Part shown: piece by piece, positions 9,163 through 26,346 of the stretch
Numbering within the stretch: the first letter of the stretch is position 1
Layout: the number at the start of each line of letters is the position of its first letter
Notes under the pieces: generated by a model
What the model was told of the DNA's origin: nothing
What the model saw: only the letters and a program-made list of their open reading frames with translations
Databases searched by the model: none
Assembly: GCA_016182045.1 (NCBI GenBank)
Contig: JACOYE010000014.1
Span: forward strand, 1-43,971
Length of the DNA: 43,971 nt
Source of the DNA: Candidatus Microgenomates bacterium
Lineage (GTDB): Bacteria; Patescibacteriota; Microgenomatia; Daviesbacterales; UBA10151
Reading direction: 5' to 3'
Program-made: the position numbers and the translations under genes

Positions 9163-9263
9163 AGATTGCTTCGCCACTTCGTGGTCTCGCAATGACGCCC
9201 GCACTGAGTCCACCGAAGTGTCATTGCGAGGAGTCCGATTTATCGGACGACGTGGCAATCTCT
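9163..9263. repeat. ATTGCGAGG-type composite palindromic repeat (two inverted half-units with variable hairpin centres)
   Basis: AGATTGCTTCGCCACTTCGTGGTCTCGCAATGAC...GTCATTGCGAGGAGTCCGATTTATCGGACGACGTGGCAATCTC. Confidence 0.85.
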
Positions 9264-17738: not shown

Positions 17739-17743
17739 CGAGA

Positions 17744-17812
17744 TCCTTCGACTCGTCTTCGACCCTGAGGCTCAGACCCGAAGGGCTTCGCTCGCTCAGG
17801 ATGACAGAAAAA
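17744..17812. repeat. TGTCATCCTGAG-type palindromic repeat, partial, between atpB and atpE
   Basis: GAGATCCTTCGACTCGTCTTCGACCCTGAGGCTCAGACCCGAAGGGCTTCGCTCGCTCAGGATGACA. Confidence 0.8.
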
Positions 17813-21431: not shown

Positions 21432-22906
<1,475 letters not shown>

Positions 22907-24466: not shown

Positions 24467-25441
24467 ATGGCTGATTCAAATAATCCGAATTTGTCAATTA
24501 TAATCCTGAACTACAATGTTCGGGATCTCTTAATAAATTGTTTAGACTCCATTTTTAAAAACAAAACTTCTAAAGATAACTGGCAAGTGATTGTGGTGGA
24601 TAATGCATCAACTGATGGATCTGTAGAGGCTGTAAAAGAGAAGTATAAGATTTCATCTTCTGCTAATCGCAGTAAGATTGCCACGTCGCCTTCGGCTCCT
24701 CGCAATGACAACATGGTGGAGCTTGTGGAAAATAAAGAAAATTTAGGTTTTGCTGCTGGGAATAATGTGGGGGCGAAAAAAGCTAAAGCGCCTGTTGTAC
24801 TTTTTTTAAATCCGGACACGGTCGTTGTGGATGATGCTATCCAGAAAACTTATAAATATTTAATGGGAAACCCGGATATTGGTGCGGTAACCTCGAAGGT
24901 TGAACTTCCAAATGGTAAGCTGGACTACTCTTCTCATCGGGGTTTTCCCACTCCCTGGAATTCTTTTTGTTATTTTAGTGGTTTAGCAAAACTTTTTCCC
25001 CACTCCCCTCTTTTTTCTGGATACACTGCATCCTACCTGGATACCGCAACAACCCATGAGATAGATTGTTTAACAGGCGCATTTTTAATGCTCAGAAAAA
25101 TTGCCGGAGAACAAATAGGTTGGTGGGATACTGATTATTTTTTCAATGGTGAGGATATTGAATTTTGTTACTCACTTAAAGAAAAAGGTTGGAAAATTTA
25201 TTTTTATCCTGAGGTGAAAATAATTCACTATAAAGGTTCTTCCTCCGGACTTTGGAAAACAGCGGCCACAGAAGTGGAAAGAGAAAAAAAGATGGAGGCT
25301 GTGACACACGGTGTTTTTGCCATGAGGATTTTTTATAAAAAACACTTTTACAAAAAATATCCACCAATATTTAGGGACTTGATTTTAGTTGGAATAAAAA
25401 TGTTGGAACATTACAGAAAGGCTAAACTATGGATCAGTTAG
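24467..25441 (+). CDS. Family 2 glycosyltransferase with repeat-derived insertion
   Basis: LSIIILNYNVRDLLINCLDSI...VVDNASTDGSVEAV...ENLGFAAGNN...NPDTVV...GEDIEFCYSLKEKGW. Confidence 0.92.
   Translation: MADSNNPNLSIIILNYNVRDLLINCLDSIFKNKTSKDNWQVIVVDNASTDGSVEAVKEKYKISSSANRSKIATSPSAPRNDNMVELVENKENLGFAAGNNVGAKKAKAPVVLFLNPDTVVVDDAIQKTYKYLMGNPDIGAVTSKVELPNGKLDYSSHRGFPTPWNSFCYFSGLAKLFPHSPLFSGYTASYLDTATTHEIDCLTGAFLMLRKIAGEQIGWWDTDYFFNGEDIEFCYSLKEKGWKIYFYPEVKIIHYKGSSSGLWKTAATEVEREKKMEAVTHGVFAMRIFYKKHFYKKYPPIFRDLILVGIKMLEHYRKAKLWIS
24674..24710 (+). repeat. ATTGCGAGG-type element inside a GT2 gene
   Basis: AAGATTGCCACGTCGCCTTCGGCTCCTCGCAATGACA, encoding KIATSPSAPRND. Confidence 0.85.
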
Positions 25442-26346
25442 ATTTATCTGTCATCATACTAAGCTACAATACTAAAGAAATTACTCACAGATGTTTACAA
25501 AAACTTGAGGAAGCCAAAATTTATTGCGAAAAAAAACTTAATAACAAAATAGAAGTTATCGCTTTAGATAATGGCTCATCAGATGGATCTGCTCAAATGA
25601 TTAAAACAGATCATCCCCAAGTAAAACTTATTGAATCAAAAGAAAATTTAGGTTTTTCCAAGGGTAACAATTTAGCAATGAAACAATGTAACAATCCATT
25701 TATTTTACTTTTAAACTCAGATGTTTATGTGGAAGAAGATAGTTTATATAAAACACTTGCCTATTTTAAGGTTAATAAAAATTGTGACGTAATGGGTGCA
25801 AAATTAAAATATGCCTCGGGCAAATTGCAGCCTTCTGCCGGTAATTTGCCCAACCCACTAAATATAATAACCTGGATTTTAGGTTTAGGTTTTTTGCCAC
25901 TGATTAACAATTTTATCCCCCCCCTTCATGCTAGAAATATGCCTTTTTTCTCAAAAGCCCATCAGGTTGGCTGGATTATGGGAGCTTTTTTTATGATAAA
26001 AAAAGCAATTTTTGAGAAAACCTTAGGTTTTGATGAAAATTTATTTATGCATATGGAAGAGGTTGAGTGGTGTAAAAGGATTAATATGGCTCACTTTAAA
26101 ATATGGTATGTGCCACAAGTTGAGGTAGTTCACCTCCATGGGGCCTCATCAAAGTTTGATCTAGGTGCAAGTTTTTTAAATGAGCTTAAAGGAATTAAAT
26201 ATTATCTTAAAAAACATTATCCCCCTTTTTATTTGCCAGTTAAATTATTTTTAATTTTGGGGTTAATTTTAAGAATAATAGCTTTTTCTTTACTGGGAAA
26301 AACAAAAAGAGCAAGAATTTATGTGGAAGGATTGGGAGTGATATAG
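25429..26346 (+). CDS. Family 2 glycosyltransferase
   Basis: LSVIILSYNTKEITHRCLQKL...ALDNGSSDGSAQMI...ENLGFSKGNN; 13-bp overlap with upstream GT2. Confidence 0.92.
   Translation: MDQLDLSVIILSYNTKEITHRCLQKLEEAKIYCEKKLNNKIEVIALDNGSSDGSAQMIKTDHPQVKLIESKENLGFSKGNNLAMKQCNNPFILLLNSDVYVEEDSLYKTLAYFKVNKNCDVMGAKLKYASGKLQPSAGNLPNPLNIITWILGLGFLPLINNFIPPLHARNMPFFSKAHQVGWIMGAFFMIKKAIFEKTLGFDENLFMHMEEVEWCKRINMAHFKIWYVPQVEVVHLHGASSKFDLGASFLNELKGIKYYLKKHYPPFYLPVKLFLILGLILRIIAFSLLGKTKRARIYVEGLGVI

Follow-up and report, generated by a model that had tools for sequence, protein, structure and literature searches.

How does a palindrome come to lie, in frame, within a glycosyltransferase gene, between two conserved motifs that typically sit only a few residues apart? 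The question is raised by a GT2 gene in the window, i.e., the whole 43,971-nucleotide stretch analyzed here (contig JACOYE010000014.1 of a Candidatus Microgenomates bacterium), where a preliminary description had recognized such a palindrome and assigned it to the same repeat family as a sequence between genes at 9163-9263. The features at the locus are as follows.

24467-25441, + strand: insert-bearing GT2 glycosyltransferase ORF, 324 aa (Pfam PF00535, E = 1.2e-24)
24647-24715, + strand: extra loop, i.e., the whole inserted stretch, codons 61-83 (KISSSANRSKIATSPSAPRNDNM), of which 19-21 residues are missing in orthologs
24647-24673, + strand: decayed second unit (TCTTCtGCTAATCGC), kin of the sister palindrome GATTCTTCGCTAATCGCTCAGAATGAC by local alignment
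24676-24709, + strand: intact palindromic unit, GATTGC...GCAATGAC, a strict pattern match
25429-26346, + strand: neighboring GT2 gene, an insert-free built-in comparison with DGSAQMIKTDHPQVKLIESKENLGF between the motifs

The intact unit, GATTGCCACGTCGCCTTCGGCTCCTCGCAATGAC, is a 34-base palindrome on the plus strand (24676-24709) that is read in phase within the GT2 gene as (K)IATSPSAPRND; on the minus strand, it reads TGTC-ATTGC...GCAAT-CT and spans 24675-24710. The extent first proposed for the insert holds for the 12 codons of the palindrome, while the full extra stretch proved larger, covering codons 61-83 and running 19-21 codons beyond orthologs with an empty site. Since its upstream part (24647-24673) also matches the sister unit (local alignment TCTTC(T)GCTAATCGC, with a score that 0 of 5000 shuffles reached), we read the insert as compound, consisting of a decayed and an intact unit. 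For the protein, AlphaFold2 predicts a GT-A fold (pTM 0.83) that matches GT-A enzymes, and the insert occupies a loop flanked by two confidently structured elements, namely helix 52-59, which comes after the DNASTDGS motif, and strand 84-87. Within the loop, pLDDT falls below 50 at residues 65-81, a drop to be expected in part, since the alignment is thinly populated at these positions.

Copies of the unit were sought with a strict pattern (GATTGC-N8..38-GCAATGAC), using the reversed pattern as control. The window holds three matches, against none in 100 dinucleotide shuffles, namely the GT2 copy and an intergenic pair:

9164-9196, + strand: intergenic unit of the main family, strict match
9220-9260, - strand: intergenic unit of the main family, strict match, pairing with 9164-9196 with GTC ends inward (TT dimer)

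These two units make up the intergenic repeat at 9163-9263, so that its proposed membership in the same family was borne out, with no particular copy nameable as donor. Across the genome (905 kb, 24 contigs), 32 strict copies were found, against 0 for the reversed control, which upholds the initial reading of the GT2 stretch as a palindromic repeat set in frame between the motifs. The base before GTC at the head is C in 19 copies and T in 13 (19 CGTC and 13 TGTC), and T invariably follows the final C of the tail (32 of 32), so that the tail reads CT and then a variable base. The pattern itself fixes GTC, the tail C, the A-T stem start, and the ATGAC ends; the head pyrimidine and the tail T lie outside it and are nevertheless kept in all 32 copies, and the element is therefore best written as YGTC-ATTGC...GCAAT-CT. 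Single units measure 26-41 bp and comprise an outer stem of 5 bp followed by mismatches and an interrupted, length-variable inner hairpin, the outer stem of many units being just those 5 bp. Dimers measure ~75-78 bp, and among eight close pairs, classified from strands and positions, seven are head-to-head, their GTC ends pointing outward, and the pair 9164/9220 is tail-to-tail, with GTC ends inward.

A genome-wide count, with coding or intergenic status assigned from 3-kb loci around each copy, placed 15 of the 32 copies (12 of the 24 events, when dimers are merged) in frame in genes. Measured against the coding density of the window (0.91), the genic half of the events represents a marked depletion (p = 2e-7), which fits expectation if most intragenic insertions are removed. 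None of the intergenic copies whose neighbors were checked by Pfam splits a gene. A gatA-like gene (L030:1575-2900, + strand) is frameshifted and lacks ~25 codons at a place other than the palindrome, reflecting either a deletion or an assembly error.

Relatives of the GT2 ORF are present in 50 of 57 related genomes, the named ones belonging to Candidatus Daviesbacteria and, more distantly, Levybacteria. As the preliminary description had stated, the motifs flanking the insert are only a few residues apart in the neighboring GT2 gene, and this is also true of nearly all orthologs. The closest ortholog (G030, 81% identity) has KYNDNVVELVENKENLGF, with KYNDNVVELV at the site, and is 19 residues shorter; the majority of the others have KYP-xVEL there and are 21 residues shorter. 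Two orthologs (L034 and L036) carry unrelated loops of intermediate length (10-13 residues), indicating that this loop tolerates length change in general. No ortholog in the alignment has unrelated sequence of the same length at this position, and the one of similar loop length (L062, Daviesbacteria RIFCSPLOWO2_01_FULL_39_23) carries at the same site the sister palindrome GATTCTTCGCTTCGCTCAGAATGAC followed by GCTCGGAATGACAAC. The GT2 gene tree does not resolve whether the inserts in the window and in L062 were shared or separate. In the G030 gene, AATGACAA looks like a possible deletion scar. No target-site duplication, a trait of MITEs, could be defined, the flanks in empty-site orthologs being too diverged, and no pair of strains differing in presence or absence of a copy was found.

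The GT2 gene is one of 11 genes with in-frame copies of the main family, 10 of which have a recognizable family. The others are those for UvrD (two dimers), DinB, ATP-dependent DNA ligase, ValRS, the CCA-adding enzyme, MurE, a Ca-type P-ATPase, a GT4, an AAA/kinase-like protein, and a 305-residue protein without Pfam match. Alignments with the best solved homologs pass over the repeat-coded stretch or show a gap there for UvrD/PcrA (clearest at site 1), Pol IV, the CCA-adding enzyme, P-ATPase, ValRS, and DNA ligase, and the alignment of MurE with its solved homolog is less clear; wherever the comparison is clear, orthologs and solved homologs are, by their aligned sequences, without the repeat stretches. 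A sister family, GATTC...GAATGAC, has 18 matches in the genome (two overlapping) and none for its control. It is represented between genes in the window, and its in-frame inserts extend the set of affected genes by two of PolA type and those for Fpg, PurL, trigger factor, and a citrate-type ATP-grasp protein; further units lie in the GT4, ValRS, and DinB genes.

21502-21528, + strand: intergenic sister-family unit GATTCTTCGCTAATCGCTCAGAATGAC
17741-17806: intergenic palindrome GATCCTTC...AGGATGAC of a further sister family, upstream of ORFs from 18142

The in-frame palindromes in the two PolA-type genes, Fpg, and DinB lie at L148, L149, L151, and L080 (contigs C10, C11, and C23 of this genome, G000), and one glycosyltransferase gene (L014:844-2082, + strand) holds an in-frame palindrome from each of two families (VIARSPKATVAIS and VIPAKAGIH). 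By raw count, genes for repair seem over-represented among those hit. The copy on contig C23, which appeared conserved between genomes, was also considered as a known structured RNA; Rfam returned nothing for it, and it lies in dinB.

Recurrence in relatives was followed most closely in uvrD.

L001:586-2613, - strand: uvrD with two insert sites (G000, contig C4; orthologs L083-L111)

Across many genera of the family, two loops of UvrD hold palindromic inserts of several unrelated families. Most orthologs with an empty site 2 share a length of 16 residues there (exactly 16 in 12 of 29 orthologs), versus 37 in the window's genome. In 9 of the 29 relatives, site 2 contains all or one end of a YGTCAT...ATGAC palindrome, with at least two families represented (GTCATTGC... 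and GTCATCCTGAG...). To explain this distribution, the tree requires a minimum of six gains or losses, of which well-supported branches force three; site labels were assigned by a mechanical rule under which L089 and L099 may be weak calls. At site 1, GTCAT-type palindromes or their remnants are seen in several orthologs, and three related genera (L084, L089, and L090) have a different palindrome, CACCTCCGAGGTG, in two copies and in frame. Copy number is patchy within the family, ranging from 0 to 194, and in the phylum at large 157 of the 380 genomes sampled contain one or more copies. The 30 loci read in the genome with 194 copies include in-frame copies in a heavy-metal P-ATPase and in UvrA; the UvrA of G023 carries an insert.

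We consider it very probable that the GT2 stretch is a copy of a dispersed, non-autonomous, hairpin-forming repeat, whose copies are gained by copying or transposition, are purged or tolerated, and then decay. Building on the observed copy number, in-frame placement, absence from orthologs, and recurrence at the same loops in relatives, the repeat would be mobile, with copies of the main and sister families arising at new sites via copying or transposition. Genic insertions that cause a frameshift, a stop, or a broken core would be lost by selection, and in-frame insertions falling in loops would persist, to be translated as roughly 9-30 extra residues with a presumably neutral effect on the protein. 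Point mutations and deletions would in time turn the persisting inserts into linkers of ordinary appearance, and under this order of events the GT2 loop would have become a compound insert of two units.

That the stretch is instead an ordinary variable loop with a chance likeness to the repeat seems extremely improbable to us: the GT2 loop does vary in length among close relatives, including the unrelated versions in L034 and L036, but the strict match extends over 34 bases to a family of 32 copies without control matches, all of which share the extra head and tail bases, and the same type of match recurs in ten other genes. Copy statistics and orthologs together rule out a chance match or plain loop variation. 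We likewise give next to no credence to an assembly or binning artefact that joined repeat copies. The assembly is fragmented and the frameshift in gatA, with its missing codons, lies near one intergenic copy, but the units are far below ordinary read length, the frame is kept in 11 genes, and independently assembled genomes of other species have inserts at the same loops. A role of the palindromes as RNA or DNA elements (an mRNA hairpin, or a gyrase or protein binding site), to which the peptide would be incidental, is suggested by the ability of the units to fold and by such roles of REPs elsewhere (PMC3733652); it is nonetheless very unlikely here, given that the GT2 copy folds weakly (-9.9 kcal/mol), the outer stem of many units has just 5 bp, the second GT2 unit is decayed, and orthologs keep an intact gene without the insert.

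Targeted or selected insertion deserves separate weighing. Fixed loops of replication and repair genes might be favored, either by a mobilizing step acting at stalled forks or at transcription bubbles, or through an adaptive benefit of altered repair proteins, the latter being the mutator hypothesis put forward by Di Nocera 2013 (PMC3733652). The inserts in UvrD, DinB, DNA ligase, two PolA-type genes, and Fpg here and in UvrA in G023 speak for it, as do the uvrD loops struck repeatedly in separate lineages and the same gene class noted in other phyla (PMC3733652). However, glycosyltransferases, a tRNA synthetase, MurE, P-ATPase, PurL, and trigger factor were also struck, long multi-loop genes are larger targets, and permissive loops alone account for the recurrence, so that we hold targeting to be unlikely. 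A broader proposal, possible but rather doubtful in our view, is that palindromes keep supplying Patescibacteria with new protein loops, with repeated insertion into the same loops of genes for replication and repair through a dedicated, putative hairpin-copying machinery; if so, repeat DNA would remodel repair proteins across Patescibacteria.

Returning to the dispersed, non-autonomous repeat, what might mobilize it? The genome encodes three Y1_Tnp/RAYT-like ORFs of 217-228 residues (L076, L077, and L078, on contigs C18 and C2), and no repeat unit was found at any of the three loci (~3.2 kb each). Copy number correlates weakly with the number of Y1_Tnp genes across 57 genomes (rho 0.37, p 0.004; within the family, rho 0.30, p 0.09), and a genome with 96 copies lacks Y1_Tnp altogether. 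A RAYT as proven mobilizer was thus rejected, given Y1_Tnp ORFs without flanking units and the weak correlation with copy number.

The in-frame repeats in numerous housekeeping genes of this candidate-phylum bacterium, whose genome is reduced, and the independent recurrence at the same loops of uvrD in different genera provide a large comparative data set. It can be used to ask if the inserts are carried as neutral passengers, which protein sites accept them, by what course they decay, and if the reported bias to repair genes holds up. The repeats also carry a warning for annotation, in that peptides such as VIASEAKQS, IATSPSAPRND, and VIPAKAGI within real proteins are repeat DNA.

Protein-coding palindromes were at first described as a peculiarity of Rickettsia, and a few other bacteria were later found to have them. 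The Rickettsia palindromic elements RPE-4, RPE-6, and RPE-7 were reportedly described by Ogata in 2000 and 2002. Like the units studied here, these are ATGAC-ended palindromes inserted in frame in housekeeping and repair genes at solvent-exposed places, and in-frame insertion in protein genes is what the 15 copies in 11 genes display. In R. japonica, ATGAC-rich RPE-4/6/7 of different families occupy the same loci of orthologs (PMC3767692), the very pattern seen here at the uvrD sites and in the GT2 loop. However, rickettsial units are about 95-136 bp long (PMC2267715), as against 26-41 bp here in a Daviesbacteria-type host of another phylum; the two are set apart by length and host.

A second likeness is to the CGTC-tagged REPs, with which the R. 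conorii elements RPE-6 and RPE-4 are equated as families CGTC-1 and CGTC-4 in Di Nocera 2013 (PMC3733652). As described there, these have a terminal unpaired CGTC (or TGTC/CCTC), a stem of 8-9 bp from A-T pairs, a loop of 4-5 bases, and a CCA-like tail, occur mostly as head-to-head dimers without transposase, and, as do those of the GTAG kind, lie within genes for UvrD, DNA ligase, DNA polymerase I, and tRNA synthetases of various species. The units here share the head motif (CGTC or TGTC in all 32), the preference for head-to-head dimers (7 versus 1), the absence of an adjacent dedicated transposase, and, by construction of the search pattern, the A-T stem start. They differ in that the outer stem has 5 bp and is followed by an interrupted inner hairpin of variable length, and in that CT plus a variable base stands in place of an unpaired CCA-like tail, and no Patescibacteria or other candidate-phylum member was seen among the CGTC-tagged REPs in the accessible part of that paper. 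GTAG REPs and their RAYTs resemble our system in their short palindromes, paired units, and some intragenic copies, and in the RAYT-like Y1_Tnp ORFs of this genome, but the head is C/TGTC rather than GTAG and the RAYT-like loci lack the unit. We found no report of such palindromes in Patescibacteria/CPR, and, as far as our literature search reached (subscription papers and preprints lay beyond it), the present case is the first example there, with strong recurrence across genera. Because the head, dimer, transposase, and intragenic traits agree while stem/loop and tail do not, we place the repeat as an element that works like RPEs and CGTC-tagged REPs and stands outside any published family.
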